A stretch of 50,278 nt of DNA, from the IMG/VR virus record IMGVR_UViG_3300009405_000003, positions 1 to 50,278 of that record; one strand, written 5' to 3'. Source of the stretch: a virus. Below are positions 30,759-45,466 of the stretch, piece after piece (position 1 is the first letter of the stretch; the number at the start of each line of letters is the position of its first letter). A program made the position numbers and the translations under genes. The notes below the pieces were generated by a model. That model was given only the letters and a program-made list of their open reading frames with translations. It was not told the origin of the DNA and made no database searches.

Positions 30759-32021
30759 ATGGGACAAACATCTCCAGAATTACAAAGGTATTTAAGTACC
30801 TTAGACTGGCAAAAAAATGAGCTAGAAAAAATACATGATACCCCTATAATACTTAGAGGTTTTTATAATAAAGCGGATGGTATAGGAGCGATTGCACCAA
30901 ATCTCTATGATAAAGTGTTTAAATACTATAAAAATGTAAGCCTAATAACTCAAAAAAATAGAGGACATTTACACTTTGCTGATATAACTTCTATACAGCT
31001 AAATATGGACTGTGTTCAAGAATTTAAAAAACATGGAAAATCTTTTGAATGGAACTTAAAATGGAAATCCTTGGAAGGCGAACATCTAAAACGTCCTAAA
31101 GACTTCCAAAATGCAAAATTTATTCATGCTGGTGGGTTTGATAATATTCACAATTTTGAAATCGAGTACCAACAAAACTACCTGGATATCTTCAAACTAA
31201 AAAAATTATTTAACGTAGAAACATATCTGTACCTCATGTGGGAAAGTACTGGCATAGAAATTTTTGAAAAGCTGTTTCATTTATACGACCACATAATTGT
31301 GACTAATACTTGGTTGCAGAAACTTATACAGGACAAATACCCCCAAGTTAGCGTGTTATTTGTTGAGCATGTAGCCAGTTATTATACTCAGTATGCGACA
31401 GGCGCAGGTAAGAATTTTACCTTTGGATTTTCTGGTGGTTTATGGGAACGAAAAAAAGCAGATATAGTTGTACGTGCGTTTAATCAAATTAAAACATCTA
31501 CAGACACCTTAAAAATACATTCAAGACAATTTGTAAACACTCCTAAAATGATAGAGATAGTCTCTAAAGAAATAAAAAAATCTCCAAATGGAATTGAATT
31601 TAAAAATAAAACCTTGCCTGATAAAGAATTTGCAGAGTGGTGGGACTCACTTAATTGCTATGTATTTGTATCAGCAGGAGAAGGATATAGTATTACTCCT
31701 AGACAAGCACTAATGCAAGGAACTCCTGTCATTTTAAGTAAAAACACGAGTCATCTAGACTTACTAGATGTGCCAGGTATTTTATGGGTGGAATGTGACC
31801 CTGGCGAATCAGAATGGTCTGGCGCACCTGATATGCATATATCAGCAGGACAACAATATGAGCCTAGATTGGGAGAAGTAGTTAAACAGATGAAGGAAAT
31901 TAAAGATAACTATGATTTTTGGAAAAAGGCCGCTTTTGAGGGCGGAGAAATAATTAAAAACCGCACTAATGATACTAATATACAAAAACAATGGAGCGCT
32001 ATACTATGAAACAAAAAATAG
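30759..32021 (+). CDS. GT-B glycosyltransferase (GT4-like)
   Basis: About 416-420 aa. The C-terminal Rossmann domain carries FGFSGGLWERKKADIVVRAF and the nucleotide-sugar motif FVSAGEGYSITPRQALMQG (E-x7-E-like region reduced) of GT4 enzymes. ATG 30759 was chosen because an upstream in-frame ATG falls in the terminator. The frame reaches TGA at 32007 inside an ATGA overlap with the next gene; as Trp it adds W-N-K-K to TAG at 32021. Together with GMD and the GT-A gene it makes up a sugar module; the acceptor (virion, host surface or DNA) is unknown. Confidence 0.78.
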
Positions 32022-32998
32022 CTTTAATAACTGGAATTAATGGAATGGATGGCAGCCATTTAGCTGATCTCCTTCTAAGTAAAAACTATATCGTCTATGG
32101 AATGGAGCGTCGCTCTTCAAGTAAAAATAGAGTTAACACGGCTCACTTGGAATCTATAGACAACTTCCATTTTATTAATGGAGATTTAACTGACCAAAAC
32201 TCTCTAGTAAGATGTTTACGTGAAGCAAGTCCTCAAGAAGTGTACAACTTAGGTGCTATGTCCTTTGTAGGAGAAAGTTGGAATACTCCAGAAAATACAG
32301 GAGATGTAAATGGATTAGGTGTTCTTAGAATGCTTGAAGCGATTAGAGAAGTAGACAAATCTATTAAATTTTATCAAGCGTCTACTTCTGAAATGTTTGG
32401 TAAAATGGTTGAAAATCCAGCTAATGAGAATACTCCATTCTATCCTAGAAGCCCTTATGGAGTTGCAAAACTTTATGGGCATTGGATAACTAAAAATTAT
32501 CGAGAGTCTTATGGAATGTTTGCTTGTAGTGGAATCTTATTTAACCATGAAGGTGAACGTCGAGGGCTAGAGTTTGTTACCCGTAAAATTACAAACGGTG
32601 TGGCTAAAATTAGATTAGATCTACAAGATAAAATTATGCTAGGGAACCTAGACTCATATAGAGATTGGGGCTATGCTCCAGACTACGTTGATGCTATGTG
32701 GCGCATGTTACAACAGGATACACCGGAAGATTTTGTTATCTCATCTGGAGAAACAAGATCTATTCGGAATTTTCTTGAGGCTGCCTTTGCTAGAGTTGGT
32801 ATAAATGCTTGGGAAAAATATGTAGGACAAGATCCTCGATTTTATAGGCCAGCTGAGGTAGATGTTTTACTCGGAAACTCAGCTAAAGCAAAAGAGATTT
32901 TAAATTGGGAGCCAACAACAACCTTTACAGCTATGGTTGATAAAATGGTAGAAAATGACTTTAACTTATTAAAAACTAAAGCTACAGAAACCTTATAA
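32006..32998 (+). CDS. gmd: GDP-mannose 4,6-dehydratase
   Basis: 330 aa from ATG 32006. Rossmann NADP motif ALITGINGMDGSHLADLL, catalytic ASTSEMFGK, YxxxK as YGVAKLYGHW, and NHEGERRGLEFVTRKI match GMD closely. The reaction turns GDP-mannose into GDP-4-keto-6-deoxymannose, precursor of fucose, rhamnose or perosamine. An in-frame ATG at 31991 is possible, but MKQKIALITG is the family's usual beginning. No reductase or epimerase for the next step is visible, so the phage may draw on host enzymes or use the keto sugar directly. TAA stop. Confidence 0.92.
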   Translation: MKQKIALITGINGMDGSHLADLLLSKNYIVYGMERRSSSKNRVNTAHLESIDNFHFINGDLTDQNSLVRCLREASPQEVYNLGAMSFVGESWNTPENTGDVNGLGVLRMLEAIREVDKSIKFYQASTSEMFGKMVENPANENTPFYPRSPYGVAKLYGHWITKNYRESYGMFACSGILFNHEGERRGLEFVTRKITNGVAKIRLDLQDKIMLGNLDSYRDWGYAPDYVDAMWRMLQQDTPEDFVISSGETRSIRNFLEAAFARVGINAWEKYVGQDPRFYRPAEVDVLLGNSAKAKEILNWEPTTTFTAMVDKMVENDFNLLKTKATETL

Positions 32999-33064
32999 TG
33001 AGAAAAAATAATTTGCAGAATGGTGGACATAAAAATATAAAAGCCCAGTGGAGGAGTATTATTA

Positions 33065-33835
33065 ATGAGTAAAATTACTATAGGAGTGGTTATGGTATTC
33101 CATAATGAGTTAAACCTTATTAAAGAATGGTTACCAAAAGTACAAGAATATGCGGACGAGATCGTTTGTGGAAACCATGCTAGTACTGATGGATCCAAAG
33201 AGTTCTTGGTAGAAAAAGGTGTAAAAGTTATTGACTTCGATTTTAGCTGTTTAATTAAAAACGGATTTAGTTATATGAAAAATGAATGCAATAAATTGTT
33301 AACTACTGATTGGATTCATAGTTTAGATGCAGATGAAATATTAGATAAACATAGTAGAGAAAATATACATAATACGTTAAAAAAAGTAGGGCAAGACTCG
33401 ATACAGATAACAACGAGAACTTACCATAGAACGATAGAACCTATAGACATGTCTTGGGATACTATAGTTAAACGGGTGAGTTCTTTTAATGACGACTATC
33501 ATAGAAGGATATTTAAACAAGGTTCGGGTATAGAATGGAAGGGATATATACATGAAGAGCTATTTAAAAATAATATGAATTGCGTGAGCACTTCTTGGCA
33601 AAACTCTCCCTTTATACATCGCCACTTCTCACACTTTAAACAAGAAGAGCCAAATGCATATAAAGAAAATTTATACACATATATGCTACTTAATGCATAC
33701 TATAACCAACCATTACAGGAATTTACAAACAGATGGTGGTATGATATATATGTACCACAGAAAATGACAGACTGTTCTAGAGAATGAATGGAAGAAGCTT
33801 ATAAGTATTTAATCAATCATAAAGATGAACAGTAA
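33065..33835 (+). CDS. GT-A (GT2-like) glycosyltransferase, with a TGA 16 codons from the end
   Basis: The N-terminus IGVVMVFHNELNLIKEWLP and the DxD-type motif WIHSLDADEI place it in the GT2-like GT-A group. TGA at 33785-33787 falls in SRE-W-MEEAYKYLINHKDEQ; read as Trp the frame ends at TAA 33833-33835 for 256 aa. As a stop the protein is 240 aa and probably still complete. The extension is charged and helical, looks like real coding sequence, and ends overlapping the next start, so I favour Trp. It is the only plausible sense TGA in the plus-strand genes. Confidence 0.78.
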
Positions 33836-37212: not shown

Positions 37213-37623
37213 ATGGAAAATATATTAGATTTAAGTGTTGGAAGAGCAGATAGAAAAGTAAAAATTTTAAACATTGAAGAAACAAAAGTTGAAGTCAGAG
37301 GAAAACTTTCAAGTAAAACTGTGTTTAAAGTTGAGCAGAATGATGGTAAAGAATTTAATATCTCAGATGTATGGGTAGAAATGCCTAATGGTGAGAAACG
37401 AATTCAAGGTCTTTGGATTAATTTAGATGATGACGGACAGCTGTCCGCAACCTCAACTTTAGCAAAATTTTTGCGGTACTACTCTAAAGAAACATTGTCG
37501 GACTTTATAGGGACGACGATAGATGTATACCCCGACCCAAACAACTTTTTAGTATTTGCATCATGTAAAATGCAAACTGAAAAAGTAGAAGAAAATCCAC
37601 AACAATTAAATTTGTTTGATTAA
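37213..37623 (+). CDS. 136-aa protein with C-terminal beta-clamp-binding motif
   Basis: The body (VKILNIEETKVEVRGKLSSK, FNISDVWVEMPNGEKRIQGL) looks like a small beta-barrel, possibly OB-like. The last residues are QQLNLFD, matching the bacterial sliding-clamp-binding consensus QLxLF at the extreme C-terminus, a usual place for it. No catalytic motif is seen. It may recruit host beta clamp, and no phage clamp gene is visible in the window. TAA stop, 23 nt before the 703-aa gene. Family unknown; the motif is short, so chance occurrence is possible. Confidence 0.65.
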   Translation: MENILDLSVGRADRKVKILNIEETKVEVRGKLSSKTVFKVEQNDGKEFNISDVWVEMPNGEKRIQGLWINLDDDGQLSATSTLAKFLRYYSKETLSDFIGTTIDVYPDPNNFLVFASCKMQTEKVEENPQQLNLFD

Positions 37624-37646: not shown

Positions 37647-39758
37647 ATGAACACAACTAAAGAGCTGTTACCAGCAATAAATAACTTATACGACATAGGG
37701 TTGACTGAAGAGGACATAGATAAGTTACGTAACGCAACCTCTACCTTTCAAGAATCAAATTTAGGTGAGTTGTCTCTGTGGTATTTTATAGATACACCAG
37801 GAGCGTATGTAACAAATTCTGACCCTCACGAAAATGGCCCTATTGTAATACATCGAAAAGCAGATGCAGATCAAATGCCTCCTGACGAAATTGAACGTAA
37901 AACATTCTTAAAAAAATTTTCAAAGGGCTATGTACTTTCTTATGCAGGCTTAGGTATGTATAGAAATATGGTAGAGATTGAAGACTATGAATTATACTTA
38001 AAAGATATTCAAAGCACTGATAAAGATAATTTAGAGCTACTAGAATTTTTAATGGGGGAATTTAGGCAGAGAAATCTACACACCACCGATAGAAAAACTA
38101 ACTTTAATACGCCTCAAGATGCAATACAATACTTTGTACAAGAGTTTAAAAATGAAGGCCATAATGTAAATAGCGCGCAAGGGATCGAGTACACACAAGA
38201 GGATAGCTATAAAAAAGCGGTAGAGAATATAAAGACACTTTTCGCCCCTACTGTAATTACACAGCATATACTAACTGATGAACAGGAAACTTTGATAAAT
38301 CGAAGAAAAGCTTTTTCAATAATAACGGACATACTAGAAGTTGGAAACTATAGATTTGTGTTTCGTAAACATAAACAACGTAGATGGTCATATTACAATA
38401 CCTCTCCAACATACTCCTGGACAATGGTTGAGCATTCTCACCCATCGTACAACTACTGTGATGTTGGAAGGCTAACACATACTACGGATAGAGGAGACTA
38501 TGATATATTCCCTATTGGGGAACGTATATTTGAAGAAATGGATCCTATTATTCCAAGTAAAGAAGTGTTAAATGATGAATGGAGAAATTCCCCTAATGTA
38601 CCCGAGATAGTATCTAATAAAGAACTTAGTATTCTTACTAAACGTTACTCTCAAAGACTTTTAAGAGAGCAGCGTGAAGTAAAAGCTAGACAAGTTTTAA
38701 AAGATAAAACAGAAGAAAAGCTTAATACTTTAAAATACCCTGGAAAAACTTTAAAAATCAATGAAGTGGTTTACTCTAAGGATAGTATAGAATACCAAGG
38801 GCAAACATTAAAACTTGAAGAGAGTTCGATGGGAGAATTTTGGGTAAAGACATTACTTCAAAGCATGGTAAGAACCAGAGGTATAAACTCAATTACTTTT
38901 GATGATGTGCTTTCTGTTCTAACTAGTTACCTAGGTGAACTTGATAACGCAAAAGGTACTATTGGTGAAGTAGCATTCGACATTGAAAAAAGAGTAAGTA
39001 CTAACAGTTTAGGAGTATCTTCTTCTCGTTTGTATGTAAATGACAAACGTATTAATAAAGATGAGACAGGGCAAGTGCTTGAAAGAGCCTTATGCTACAC
39101 CTCTCAAGAAGACTATAACTACTTTATTAAATCAGTAAGTCAATGTTCTTTATTTATACACAAGTATTTACAATTAGGTATTGATATTAATGTTAGAGAT
39201 GACTTTGATAGAACTAGTGTACAAATGAAGTTTCCTCTTGAAAGACGTCGTGGATCAAACTATCTTGTTCTTGGAGACAGAGAATTTAAAGTTTCAAATA
39301 CTAAGAGACTAATTAATCTTAGAAAAGCTATGTCTTTAATAGATGTTATTAATATCTTACTTTCAGGCAAAGTTGTGCAAGATGTTGAAGCAACTGATAT
39401 TAAAACATTAATAGCAGATGGTAAGCAAGAATATATAGATGCAGTTACCAAAAGTAAAGAACTTCTAAAAGAAACTGAAGAATTGTTTAAGTTACACGTT
39501 GAGGAGTTAGAAGTTGATGGACGCACTAAACGTGGGTATAAAATTAATGGAAAAATACGTACTTATTTCTTAGAAAATAATGCTGACTCAGAAGAACATA
39601 ATAGTTGTGGAGTCTATGATTACAATACGGGTAAATATATCTGTATAGTAGATAAGTCAACAAGTCAAGTTGGTATGGATAAACTTGTAAATAGAATTTA
39701 TGCATTACATAATGATGCATTAGTAGCAGGACAAATAAATACATTAAATAACCAGTAG
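37647..39758 (+). CDS. 703-aa protein of unknown function, first gene of the ubiquitin-like cassette
   Basis: ATG follows AAAGGA. There is no Walker or nuclease motif. Charged helices alternate with beta-rich segments (YRFVFRKHKQRRWSYYNTSP, TMVEHSHPSYNYCDVGRLTH). The last about 55 residues read HNSCGVYDYNTGKYICIVD, then DKLVNRIYALHND. This recalls the HPN...G-x-I-C...L..I..L.ND layout of E2 enzymes, with Cys666 in the active-site position. That is a pattern impression only. Seven nt separate it from the ubiquitin-like gene, so they are likely cotranscribed. Other options are a structural or scaffold target of the modifier. TAG stop. Confidence 0.6.
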   Translation: MNTTKELLPAINNLYDIGLTEEDIDKLRNATSTFQESNLGELSLWYFIDTPGAYVTNSDPHENGPIVIHRKADADQMPPDEIERKTFLKKFSKGYVLSYAGLGMYRNMVEIEDYELYLKDIQSTDKDNLELLEFLMGEFRQRNLHTTDRKTNFNTPQDAIQYFVQEFKNEGHNVNSAQGIEYTQEDSYKKAVENIKTLFAPTVITQHILTDEQETLINRRKAFSIITDILEVGNYRFVFRKHKQRRWSYYNTSPTYSWTMVEHSHPSYNYCDVGRLTHTTDRGDYDIFPIGERIFEEMDPIIPSKEVLNDEWRNSPNVPEIVSNKELSILTKRYSQRLLREQREVKARQVLKDKTEEKLNTLKYPGKTLKINEVVYSKDSIEYQGQTLKLEESSMGEFWVKTLLQSMVRTRGINSITFDDVLSVLTSYLGELDNAKGTIGEVAFDIEKRVSTNSLGVSSSRLYVNDKRINKDETGQVLERALCYTSQEDYNYFIKSVSQCSLFIHKYLQLGIDINVRDDFDRTSVQMKFPLERRRGSNYLVLGDREFKVSNTKRLINLRKAMSLIDVINILLSGKVVQDVEATDIKTLIADGKQEYIDAVTKSKELLKETEELFKLHVEELEVDGRTKRGYKINGKIRTYFLENNADSEEHNSCGVYDYNTGKYICIVDKSTSQVGMDKLVNRIYALHNDALVAGQINTLNNQ

Positions 39759-39765
39759 AGGAAAT

Positions 39766-40020
39766 ATGGAAAATAATAAAATAAAAGAATTTAAAGACGC
39801 ACTAGAAACAGAGGTGTTAATTAAGGTGGTGTCATCTCGAGGACACGACGAATACACAGAACCGTTATCGAATGTTGTGGCACGAGTTCAAGATGAGTGT
39901 GATAATAATGGAAAATGGGCTTACATTAATGGAGTTCAAGTTAATCCAAGTGGATTATCTATTGATGACTTCATTGATGCTGAAGATGTGACACTTACAA
40001 ACGCACTTGTAGGCGGTTAA
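39766..40020 (+). CDS. Ubiquitin-like (beta-grasp) protein ending in Gly-Gly
   Basis: 84 aa. Predicted order is beta-beta-alpha-beta-beta: EVLIKVVSSRGHDEYTE, then helix LSNVVARVQDECDNN, then KWAYINGVQVN and DAEDVTLTNALVGG. The closing D-x-VTL-x-x-LVGG is the same style as ThiS, MoaD and PRTRC-C type modifiers, which are adenylated on the terminal Gly. The stop follows GG directly, so no processing is needed before activation. AGAGGA precedes the ATG. A JAMM peptidase and an E1-like enzyme lie 1 kb downstream. Confidence 0.7.
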   Translation: MENNKIKEFKDALETEVLIKVVSSRGHDEYTEPLSNVVARVQDECDNNGKWAYINGVQVNPSGLSIDDFIDAEDVTLTNALVGG

Positions 40021-40036
40021 ACTTTAAATTAAATTT

Positions 40037-40060
40037 AAGGGGCCTTTTTTAAGGTCCCTT
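40037..40060 (+). terminator. Hairpin after the ubiquitin-like gene
   Basis: AAGGGGCC pairs with GGTCCCTT (8 bp, one G-T) around TTTTTTAA, 16 nt after the stop. The T-run lies in the loop, and the sequence after the stem is only moderately T-rich, so termination may be partial and attenuate the downstream genes. Confidence 0.55.
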
Positions 40061-40070
40061 TACCCTTAGA

Positions 40071-40120
40071 AAAAACAAACTTAAAATTAAACTAGTTTAA
40101 AAACAAACGTAAAAATAAAC
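40071..40120. repeat. Pair of 22-bp direct repeats upstream of the HTH-like gene
   Basis: AAAAACAAACTTAAAATTAAAC (40071-40092 shortened form: AAAAACAAAC then TTAAAATTAAAC) recurs at 40099-40120 with 20 of 22 bases identical, 28 bp start to start. An ACTAGTTTAA stretch lies between. Nearly helical spacing (2.7 turns) and closeness to the ATG at 40135 suggest an operator for the gene's own HTH-like product. Iteron-like origin use is possible. Confidence 0.6.
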
Positions 40121-40134
40121 TACAGGAGTAGATT

Positions 40135-40956
40135 ATGGAAACTTTCGTGTATACAACGAAAAACAATACAACTGTCACAACGAGTGACGTTAAAAAGATT
40201 AAACGAGCAATAAAAGATTTATATTGCTTGGGCGGTAAAGAACTAGAGGTTGTGAGAACGGTCTCTCAAGAATTCAACATGAAGCAGTCTACAATAAAAG
40301 AACTGGTTCATGAAGAAGTAGATATGTGGAAAGAGTCTTTCAAGTATTGCCCAAAAGCGCAAACACGTGCTAGATTTTCATCTGACCTATTTCCGAACGC
40401 ATACCAAAATTACGGGCAGTTCGAGGCGATGGTACTAGACAATGATTCACCACAATTTCTACAAAAATATTTAGATAAAAAGGGTATTAATTATAATTAT
40501 AATACGCTGGTAGGGCTTATAAATAGAATTCTGGATAAATATCCTTCAGTGAAAGGTGACATCGATCCTTCACCAAGAGGGTCGGGGTTTCATCGCGCAC
40601 ACTTTCAAAGTGCTGTGACGGACGTCGACGGAACGTTAAGTTCCACACGTCTGGACATCGTTGGGTTCGAAGCAACAGAAGCAGAAAATTTAATGATGGG
40701 CCGCATAGCGGATCATTTTAATGTGGATGAGACTGTTATTATTAACACCTTTCCTCGCTATTTATTAAATAGGAAGACAAAGCAATGCTTAGTGAACTAC
40801 GTGAATACAAAAGCATTCCCACTCGGGAAGTTACATACTAAATATACATTTAGTGGGGTATTGCGTTCATATGGAATAGTGAACACAACACTACGTCAGT
40901 TGAGGAAGGCTGGCGGGGCGTTTACTGTGCCACGTAAACCCAGAGCGCATAGATAG
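40135..40956 (+). CDS. HTH-like protein of unknown function within the ubiquitin-like cassette
   Basis: 273 aa, AGGAG before ATG, TAG stop. Residues about 20-55 could form a helix-turn-helix (VVRTVSQEFNMKQSTIKELV). The rest is mixed alpha/beta with PSPRGSGFHRAHFQSAV and NTFPRYLLNRKTKQCL, and the C-terminus is basic (VPRKPRAHR). Synonymous positions use more G and C than neighbours (for example gacgtcgacggaacg), hinting at separate acquisition. It is followed after 1 nt by the JAMM gene. It could be the regulator, an adaptor or E2 substitute, or the target; none is shown by sequence. Confidence 0.6.
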   Translation: METFVYTTKNNTTVTTSDVKKIKRAIKDLYCLGGKELEVVRTVSQEFNMKQSTIKELVHEEVDMWKESFKYCPKAQTRARFSSDLFPNAYQNYGQFEAMVLDNDSPQFLQKYLDKKGINYNYNTLVGLINRILDKYPSVKGDIDPSPRGSGFHRAHFQSAVTDVDGTLSSTRLDIVGFEATEAENLMMGRIADHFNVDETVIINTFPRYLLNRKTKQCLVNYVNTKAFPLGKLHTKYTFSGVLRSYGIVNTTLRQLRKAGGAFTVPRKPRAHR

Positions 40957-40957
40957 T

Positions 40958-41386
40958 ATGGAACTTCACATACCTAAAAGCATTGAACAAGAGGTAACCA
41001 CTTATGGTGAATCCAGTTCGCTTGAAGTGTGTGGAGCTTTCTTAGGAAATAAAAATTCTAATACACAATGGACGTGTGACGAATTTATTCCTATGACAAA
41101 TGTTTCAGATCAGGGTCAGGAAGTACATTATATTCCTGACCCGAATGAACTGTTTCAGGTGTTAAAGAAAACTACCCATATGGATAAAAATGCTAAAAAA
41201 GATTTGATCGGAATTTTTCATACTCACCCAAATAATAGAGCAGTCCCTTCTATAACAGACTTGAAAGGGGCAGGGTATATGGGCTTTTACATGATTTACT
41301 CTCCTAAACATGATGAATTAAATACATTTTATTATGATGGAGGAGACCCCGTATTTGAACCTGCAAAAACAATAATAACCGCATAG
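40958..41386 (+). CDS. JAMM/MPN metalloprotease (JAB domain)
   Basis: 142 aa, a bare JAB domain. The zinc site is complete: Glu23 in SSLEVCGAFLGN and HTHPNNRAVPSITD giving His88, His90, Ser98 and Asp101, an exact H-x-H-x7-S-x2-D. These enzymes cleave bonds after the terminal Gly of ubiquitin-like proteins. As the modifier here already ends in GG, removal from targets is the likely task rather than maturation. It lies between the HTH-like gene and the E1-like gene. TAG stop. Confidence 0.85.
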   Translation: MELHIPKSIEQEVTTYGESSSLEVCGAFLGNKNSNTQWTCDEFIPMTNVSDQGQEVHYIPDPNELFQVLKKTTHMDKNAKKDLIGIFHTHPNNRAVPSITDLKGAGYMGFYMIYSPKHDELNTFYYDGGDPVFEPAKTIITA

Positions 41387-41394
41387 GAGAGAAT

Positions 41395-41991
41395 ATGGCT
41401 AATAAAAAAATATTAGTAGTTGGTGCTGGTGGAATTGGTTCATGGCTGGCTAGCCATTTATACGAACTAGAAACGCAGGGACAACTAAACGGAATAGATA
41501 TTACGTTCGCAGACGATGATACTGTGGACACAAAAAATTTAGCTTACCAAAACTTCGAAGCGGAGGATGTGCTAGATTACAAAACTGAATCTATATCAGC
41601 CAGATATGGGTTCGGATCAACTATAGATAGAATTGAGTCGGATAATGTGCTAAATGAGTATGACTGTATTATCAGCGCTGTTGACAATACTAAATTTAGA
41701 CGGATTCTATTTAAATGGGCTAATAATAGTCCAGAGAAGTATTGGATTGATTTAAGAAGTGAAGGACGTTCAATAGCTGCATTTACTAAAAATAAAGCTA
41801 ACGGCCTTGACTACATGTTATCCACACTTGGAAATGAAGATGTAAACGATGGAAGTTGCCAAAGACAGTGGGAGCTTGATAATAATATTATCCAAAATGG
41901 AAATAAAATTGTTGCCGCTATTGGTGCTCAATATGTGTTAAATTATATACGACATGATATGAGTCCCCCACAGGTAATCCTTTCATTATAA
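41395..41991 (+). CDS. E1-like / ThiF-family adenylyltransferase
   Basis: 198 aa. It has the Rossmann loop LVVGAGGIGS (10-15), the FADDDTVDTKNLAYQN segment matching ThiF's D-x-V...NLNRQ (the Arg is Tyr here), and IISAVDNTKFRR with Asp97. Cys155 in NDGSCQRQWE is a candidate thioester residue. It is shorter than MoeB/ThiF (about 250 aa) and close to PRTRC-type ThiF proteins. It would adenylate the Gly-Gly end of the protein encoded at 39766. AGGAGA before ATG; TAA stop. Confidence 0.82.
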   Translation: MANKKILVVGAGGIGSWLASHLYELETQGQLNGIDITFADDDTVDTKNLAYQNFEAEDVLDYKTESISARYGFGSTIDRIESDNVLNEYDCIISAVDNTKFRRILFKWANNSPEKYWIDLRSEGRSIAAFTKNKANGLDYMLSTLGNEDVNDGSCQRQWELDNNIIQNGNKIVAAIGAQYVLNYIRHDMSPPQVILSL

Positions 41992-42500: not shown

Positions 42501-43328
42501 ATGGAAAGATACTTTAACACGATTAAAGACTTTAAACCTCTTCCAAAAGACAAAGAACGAGAATATTTTAAACGCGCTCAAAATGGAGATAAAATAGCTT
42601 ATGAAAAACTCATGTCAGCTAACTTAAAATTCGTAATATCTGTAGCAAAACAATACCAAAATCAAGGGCTACCCTTAGATGAATTGATAGCAGAAGGAAA
42701 TTTAGGTTTAGTTAAAGCCTATAATAAATTTGATTTATCCTATAAAACAGGGTTTATTACATACGCTGTTTGGTGGATTCGTCAGTCGATTATGAATGCA
42801 ATACATGAAAATTCAAAACTAATTCGGCTCCCGTCTAATAAAATAGCAAAAGTAACTAAAATTAATAAAGCGCGTCAAGCACTCCAGCAAAAATTATTTA
42901 GAGACCCTATACCAGAAGAAATTTGTATACATCTTTCTGGGGATATGACTGAAGAGGTGGTGTTAGAAGCGTTAAAATTTAGTTACACCTATGTCCCATT
43001 AGATGCTCCTCAAACCGATAATAATAAAACCCTTCACGAAATTATAGAAGGTGATATTTTAGATAACCCGGAACATCTTACAGGCTCACTTAAAAAAGAA
43101 TTAAAACTAGTGATGTCTGAATTTACTGAACGTGAACAGCAGATTATAAGTATGTACTTCGGTATAGACCAGCCAAGGAATTACACGTTAGAGGAGATTG
43201 GTGTAGACTTGGGGTTAACTAGGGAGCGTATACGACAGATAAAACTAAAGATTTTAGAGAAATTAAAAATGACACATAGAAGTGATAAACTAAGGGTATA
43301 TTTCGAAGATGATATATATAACGAATAA
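42501..43328 (+). CDS. Primary-type sigma-70 factor
   Basis: 275 aa, no TGA. Region 2 is strong: SANLKFVISVAKQYQNQGLP, DELIAEGNLGLVKAYNKFD and FITYAVWWIRQSIMNAI. Region 3 is reduced. Region 4 has FTEREQQIISMYFGI and YTLEEIGVDLGLTRERIRQI. It lacks region 1.1 and resembles RpoD-like group 2 or phage sigma factors. It is encoded in the TGA-poor block and is complete under either code, in contrast to the late sigma gene. Its end overlaps the polymerase start by 20 nt. Confidence 0.9.
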   Translation: MERYFNTIKDFKPLPKDKEREYFKRAQNGDKIAYEKLMSANLKFVISVAKQYQNQGLPLDELIAEGNLGLVKAYNKFDLSYKTGFITYAVWWIRQSIMNAIHENSKLIRLPSNKIAKVTKINKARQALQQKLFRDPIPEEICIHLSGDMTEEVVLEALKFSYTYVPLDAPQTDNNKTLHEIIEGDILDNPEHLTGSLKKELKLVMSEFTEREQQIISMYFGIDQPRNYTLEEIGVDLGLTRERIRQIKLKILEKLKMTHRSDKLRVYFEDDIYNE

Positions 43329-45438: not shown

Positions 45439-45466
45439 AAAAGGGTAGGCGTATGCTTACCCTTTT
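45439..45466. terminator. Bidirectional terminator between convergent blocks
   Basis: AAAAGGGTAGGC pairs with GCTTACCCTTTT around GTAT, with A/T tracts on both sides. It ends the plus-strand block and the right-hand late block. Confidence 0.9.

Follow-up and report, generated by a model that had tools for sequence, protein, structure and literature searches.

What would a virus gain from genes that look able to attach one protein to another and to take it off again? This question is raised by the IMG/VR virus record IMGVR_UViG_3300009405_000003, a 50,278-base linear sequence analysed here over its whole length and called the window. Its replication genes lie on the plus strand and its tail-type genes on the minus strand. 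Within positions 37647-41991, where a sequence-only reading had placed a ubiquitin-like conjugation cassette, five open reading frames (ORFs) are indeed present on the plus strand, encoding proteins of 703, 84, 273, 142 and 198 amino acids (aa). Four of them form a real, conserved module: a 703-aa protein without known family (here BIG), a ubiquitin-like protein (Ubl), a JAMM metallopeptidase and an E1-like adenylyltransferase (E1). This quartet is a new variant among prokaryotic Ubl-conjugation cassettes and, judging from its protein families, is likely to have Ubl-conjugating activity.

The cassette is more than a chance grouping, because the quartet recurs in about 19 distinct, divergent phage loci, window included, with the same order (BIG-Ubl-JAMM-E1) and strand, and its genes show low dN/dS (0.06-0.17 for all four in two pairs of relatives). 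These loci were obtained by searching viral contigs for E1 and BIG, and Pol A, dUTPase and ribonucleotide reductase (RNR) are further conserved neighbours across them; named phages gave weak E1 matches only and no BIG match. Conserved gene order in relatives, proposed in the sequence-only reading as a check, was confirmed in part: the genes are always clustered in phages, whereas in the magroviruses described below they are scattered over several kb and interrupted by other genes. The 273-aa gene with a helix-turn-helix-like (HTH-like) stretch, placed in the cassette by the sequence-only reading, is not a constant member, as no relative was detected in the other loci and it is found only in the window. 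Five other listed loci have ORFs of 226-268 aa in this slot between Ubl and JAMM; those of L107 and L108 are identical, those of L083 and L084 are 83% alike, L089 shares 26% with L107/L108, and no other resemblance was seen. The gap thus occupied (window 40135-40956; L089, L083, L084, L107) holds a differing mid-size HTH-like ORF from phage to phage.

The Ubl matches no sequence family, and its assignment comes from its predicted structure. The beta-grasp fold on which the earlier assignment depended is present in the AlphaFold2 model (pLDDT 87.8), with elements in the order beta-beta-alpha-beta-beta-helix-beta. The top rows of a Foldseek search against the PDB are nearly all ubiquitin, SUMO, NEDD8 and ubiquitin variants (best E=1.5e-3, TM ~0.47); in VIA, further ubiquitin-like entries, among them UFM1-UBA5 and sulfur carriers, score Z ~5, a common-fold level. 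A GG pair is invariant in 28 aligned Ubls. It forms the bare C-terminus in 16 of 18 phage Ubls, and is followed by 1-8 extra residues in 27 of 30 magrovirus and 11 of 13 Poseidoniales Ubls. The L001 Ubl has 78 aa and ends in SVGG, and at L103:11363-12070 about 150 residues follow the GG of a Ubl domain, a possible fused precursor.

The E1 matches ThiF (E=8e-15) and, as its best NCBIfam model, PRTRC_ThiF (4e-16; 59.1 bits, well under the cut-off of 144.75). Its GAGGIGS loop, D40, D42, K63, D97 and S154-C155-Q156 are invariant in a 21-sequence alignment. The SCQ triplet, which was absent from all genome and viral search patterns, marks the group: 94 of its 95 E1s, from phages, magroviruses, Methanosarcinales and Poseidoniales, have it, against none of 45 others (43 ordinary cellular, two PRTRC). 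The residue before a conserved Gln is Tyr in all readable phage, magrovirus and Methanosarcinales E1s, a count partly biased because YQN was in the search pattern; it is His in Poseidoniales and Arg in the other E1s. In the E1 tree, phage, magrovirus and Methanosarcinales sequences group with a support of 0.88, and with Poseidoniales added the support is 0.57; as these values are modest, a deep branching order is not claimed. The E1 at L134:7890-8852 has a C-terminal extension that by eye resembles a SANT/HTH-type domain.

The JAMM protein matches Prok-JAB (E=1e-13) and an archaeal desampylase model (3e-16, below that model's cut-off); all 17 aligned proteins keep E23, H88xH90P, S98 and D101. 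Pfam identifies JAMM and E1 unambiguously and, together with fold prediction and motif residues, bears out the beta-grasp Ubl with its GG end, the exact JAMM and the E1 of the sequence-only reading. A trimming protease is expected in magroviruses and Poseidoniales, because their Ubls carry residues after GG. The phage Ubls mostly end in bare GG, yet a JAMM gene is kept in every phage locus; the simplest reading, in line with what had been proposed, is that the enzyme deconjugates and trims where needed. Accordingly worded, the phage JAMM would remove Ubl from its targets, and the archaeal and archaeal-virus enzymes probably also trim residues after GG. In a profile-profile comparison of phage and magrovirus JAMM only an 18-column motif aligned, so that their homology rests on motif and location. 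E1 and JAMM are fused in one protein on Poseidoniales-type contigs (L113:7956-9164; also L114, L125, L129, L130, L137 and L138).

BIG is 21-40% identical to its relatives and has no significant match in Pfam, NCBIfam or PDB sequences. Its full-length model (pLDDT 77.7, pTM 0.55) gives a best Foldseek E of 0.19. Within that model, residues 175-270 reach a best VIA Z of 6.3, with matches that include Vif, KA1-type and RWD-type chains, and residues 175-292 give weak fold matches only, so that an E2-like domain might be hidden there. The C-terminal part of the protein has the signature GKYICIVDKSTSQVGMDKLVNRIYALHND, which contains C666, and the C-terminal C-x-x...ND pattern is common to BIG-type proteins of phages, magroviruses, Methanosarcinales and Poseidoniales. 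The Cys of this signature is conserved in 16 of 16 members of the Poseidoniales set, which was not gathered by motif. In hhalign comparisons the phage BIG profile is linked to a magrovirus protein of 383-435 aa (probability 95.6, E 1.3e-8) and moderately to Poseidoniales BIG-like proteins (probability 70-80, E ~1e-5). BIG's own sequence patterns gave no confirmed relative in the GTDB genome collection; the archaeal copies were reached through E1 searches. By eye, BIG residues 263-277 (HPSYNY..G..T) echo the HPN....G..C of E2 enzymes, a reading that is not claimed because the alignment shows no conserved Cys at this site.

The module is not specific to phages, since archaeal cells carry it too. 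Loci L025-L081 encode a TFIIB-type zinc ribbon protein, a TCP-1/cpn60 chaperonin and a histone-fold protein; by this gene content, the basis of the assignment in place of a taxonomy tool, they fit magroviruses, viruses of Poseidoniales. They carry Ubl, the BIG relative, E1 and a JAMM-motif protein, spread over several kb with intervening genes. When GTDB species genomes were scanned with the E1 alignment, Poseidoniales contigs proved to encode E1s of this type, together with 13 distinct Ubls and a JAMM that is adjacent or fused. One of these loci (L124) sits in a 2.06 Mb chromosome of marine group II (MG-II), and neighbours such as mutase-like and hydroxyacyl-CoA dehydrogenase-like proteins look cellular. 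Next to the Poseidoniales cluster lies a BIG-like protein, often present as tandem copies and showing a zinc-ribbon pattern at the N-terminus; such tandem genes beside the Ubl cluster are seen at L113:10644-14275, L137:7069-10429 and L138:10513-13978. In two Methanosarcinales/Methanoperedens contigs BIG and E1 are adjacent, and a 166-aa ORF following the Methanosarcinales E1 resembles a Ubl by eye, although profiles do not pick it up. Six loci filed under bacterial metagenome-assembled genomes (L116, L120, L126, L129, L139, L140) look archaeal or viral/magrovirus-like by content and were probably mis-binned.

The sequence-only reading had stated that the cassette recalls Bil and PRTRC systems yet equals neither, and family-model tests uphold this. 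With PRTRC it shares an E1 of the nearest NCBIfam type, a JAMM-family protein and clustered genes, and the PRTRC plasmid also has a small Ubl. That Pseudomonas plasmid differs in having the E2-like PRTRC_B (Prok-E2_D), ParB and a Ubl ending in GAKG. The PRTRC_A, PRTRC_B and PRTRC_C models found no match among six window proteins; Prok-E2_D was silent in 18 virus records, where the control was equally silent, and no ParB-related protein was matched among the six scanned proteins, for which no dedicated ParB search was made. PRTRC systems have Arg in the E1 motif, lack SCQ and show no BIG. PRTRC-like clusters with Arg in the E1 motif also occur in the jumbo phages Salmonella Arash, Bacillus KLEB27-3 and Acinetobacter ME3, with a weak Prok-E2_D match in those of Arash and KLEB27-3. 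On these grounds the quartet is, as tested, distinct from PRTRC. The cluster of Arash, a cultured Salmonella phage (L186:1519-4539), comprises a weak Prok-E2_D match along with PRTRC_A and ThiF, its E1- and E2-like proteins being annotated as structural.

Bil systems consist of BilA-D. Ubl, E1 and JAMM are common to Bil and the window, where the Ubl fold, the E1 and the JAMM were all found; the differences are that no E2 (BilB) was recognised here, that BIG is extra and that the module is shared with archaea. In relation to type II CBASS (Cap2/Cap3), which combines an E1-E2 fusion and a CD-NTase, the E1 is a 198-aa protein without E2 domain, the Cap3 model reached 15.9 bits (cut-off 200), and no CD-NTase match was found in the five cassette proteins. 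The Haloferax system SAMP/UbaA/HvJAMM is alike in its activation by E1 without a known E2, its beta-grasp Ubl with GG and its JAMM desampylase; it has no BIG, the window E1 reached 21.9 bits against SAMPActivE1UbaA (cut-off 450), and we know of no single gene cluster holding its parts. QbsC-D-E is an E1-JAMM-Ubl trio with C-terminal trimming, from which, as from ThiS-ThiF, the cassette differs in that no sulfur-metabolism partner was found. In the tail genes TAPI/TAPK of phage lambda, a JAB peptidase is found close to a Ubl-like domain (PMC1779556), whereas the present cassette lies outside the tail module and has an E1, and no NlpC/P60 was seen in its JAMM protein. An MG-II genome encodes RING-type E3s and a UCH deubiquitinase, a toolkit that differs from the module described here (PMC4327156). 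In the openly licensed papers searched, no account of such a module in magroviruses, Poseidoniales or phages was found. We propose to define an SCQ-type module by an E1 with SCQ and with Tyr or His for Arg, a Ubl ending in GG, a JAMM, and a BIG with C-terminal C-x-x...ND, all of which the window contains.

As to what the module acts on, its neighbourhood offers a lead. The window has a sigma70-family factor, which suggests a bacterial host, starting 510 nt after E1, and 17 of 20 phage loci have a sigma gene downstream of E1, at a distance of 240-2002 nt. Of 57 magrovirus loci, 52 contain TFB, which in the six listed lies between BIG and E1, and a TFB-like gene is in the cluster of 11 Poseidoniales-type loci (L113, L120, L129, L130, L134-L140); two subsets of the latter match the magrovirus TFB family at hhalign probabilities of 98.4% and 96.6%. 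As sigma and TFB are not homologous, it would be the slot that is kept rather than the gene. In Haloferax, SAMP2 forms an isopeptide link with the transcription factor TBP2 (PMC4895103), a precedent for a Ubl on a general transcription factor.

The module can be read, tentatively and with the balance close to even, as a reversible Ubl-conjugation system in which BIG serves in transfer or targeting and whose probable object is the transcription apparatus. Taken alone, the transcription initiation apparatus as target is a working hypothesis, plausible and somewhat doubtful. As its family suggests, E1 would use ATP to adenylate the Ubl at Gly84 and would then hand the Ubl to its own C155 in SCQ. 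BIG might then direct or complete transfer to a target lysine, with C666 as candidate acceptor, and JAMM, again by family, would take the Ubl off. The target could be a sigma or TFB of the virus itself, or the RNA polymerase that it recruits, and a tag there would help to time or redirect gene expression during infection. A bolder version, which we consider unlikely, assigns BIG to a new class of Ubl-transferring enzymes that work through C666 and need no E2, and makes the module an ancient archaeal and viral system tagging the initiation apparatus, with sigma and TFB swapped in the same genomic slot by host domain.

Several points weigh against this reading. Neither an E2 nor an E3 was recognised; the cassette proteins and 17 BIGs, scanned with Pfam, matched no E2 family. 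The E1 has Tyr or His where ordinary E1s have Arg. The C-terminal motif helped to select the BIG proteins of phages and magroviruses, so that the invariance of their Cys is biased. The sigma linkage was counted in what seems one phage family whose other neighbours are also conserved, and thus approaches a single observation; exceptions are L110, L103 and L001. Archaeal viruses of this kind ordinarily carry a TFB gene, and no TFB was found near the Methanosarcinales copies. With about one independent observation per lineage and gene-dense genomes, the link to transcription is a lead, not proof.

Other explanations deserve comparison with reversible conjugation. The Ubl could be a sulfur carrier, turned by E1 into a thiocarboxylate, as with ThiS, MoaD and QbsE, and serving as sulfur donor for a base, tRNA or cofactor, with BIG as the sulfur-using enzyme and JAMM as the trimmer. 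The E1 and Ubl folds are indeed common to ThiS/ThiF and MoaD/MoeB, tails after GG fit trimming, and JAB-E1-ThiS clusters tied to sulfur metabolism are listed by Iyer 2006 (PMC1779556). This is nevertheless improbable: no enzyme family matches BIG, JAMM persists where the Ubl already has a GG end, aminotransferase-V gave one weak match, and the lack of a rhodanese in 18 virus records weakens the idea, even if the host could supply sulfur. Alternatively, BIG may be the single dedicated substrate, its activity switched by the Ubl much as Cap2 acts on the CD-NTase in CBASS. It adjoins the Ubl in phages, is the sole constant non-enzyme partner, and no E2 or E3 is seen; but BIG, Ubl and JAMM are not adjacent in magroviruses and BIG has no recognised fold or activity, which leaves this option rather unlikely.

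Attachment of the Ubl to host defence proteins or to capsid or tail proteins, suggested in the sequence-only reading, has a parallel in the structural annotation of the Arash genes. That system is of another kind (Arg in E1, no SCQ, weak E2_D match), and the window cassette lies in the replication/transcription half, away from the tail genes, with an initiation factor as recurring neighbour and with counterparts in cellular archaea; such targets have a low probability. A mobile, Bil-like anti-phage defence system borne by the phage is very improbable. The E1 and JAMM weakly match PADLOC E1-E2 and JAB models, but the cassette is core-like in syntenic phages, no E2 was recognised, and the phage BIG patterns led to no confirmed GTDB relative.

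If conjugation is indeed its activity, a module with its own modifier would span bacterial tailed phages, viruses of marine archaea and archaeal chromosomes. Were it to act on transcription factors, protein tagging would be tied to gene-expression control outside eukaryotes. With one E1, a partner, a tag and a removal enzyme, it would also offer a very small system for studying conjugation without recognised E2 or E3, and its Poseidoniales copies are relevant to the history of ubiquitin signalling in archaea.

Table 1. Positions of the cassette genes, their motifs and nearby features in the window
Feature	Position	Strand	Remarks
BIG, 703 aa, no known family	37647..39758	+	Directly upstream of Ubl in phages
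Ubl, 84 aa, beta-grasp, C-terminal LVGG (ends NALVGG)	39766..40020	+	AlphaFold2, Foldseek, VIA, alignment
Gly83-Gly84 codons, Ubl C-terminus	40012..40017	+	
273-aa ORF with HTH-like stretch	40135..40956	+	Between Ubl and JAMM; not constant
JAMM/MPN+ metallopeptidase, 142 aa	40958..41386	+	Prok-JAB and desampylase models; invariant motif
JAMM motif, residues 88-101 (HTHP..., S98, D101)	41219..41260	+	
E1-like (ThiF-fold) adenylyltransferase, 198 aa	41395..41991	+	ThiF and PRTRC_ThiF matches; alignment
SCQ motif of E1	41854..41862	+	Candidate thioester cysteine: C155 (41857-41859)
Sigma70-family initiation factor, regions 2, 3, 4	42501..43328	+	Pfam; recurrent neighbour downstream of E1
136-aa protein, no assigned function	37213..37623	+	Directly upstream of BIG; cluster in 18/20 loci
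Terminator-like 12-bp hairpin	45439..45466	+	After co-directional genes; consensus scan only

Within the cassette no structured RNA was found, and promoter matches were not above those in shuffled controls. Elsewhere in the window, at 31991-33787, genes that by eye resemble a nucleotide-sugar dehydratase and a glycosyltransferase lie upstream of the dUTPase and RNR genes.

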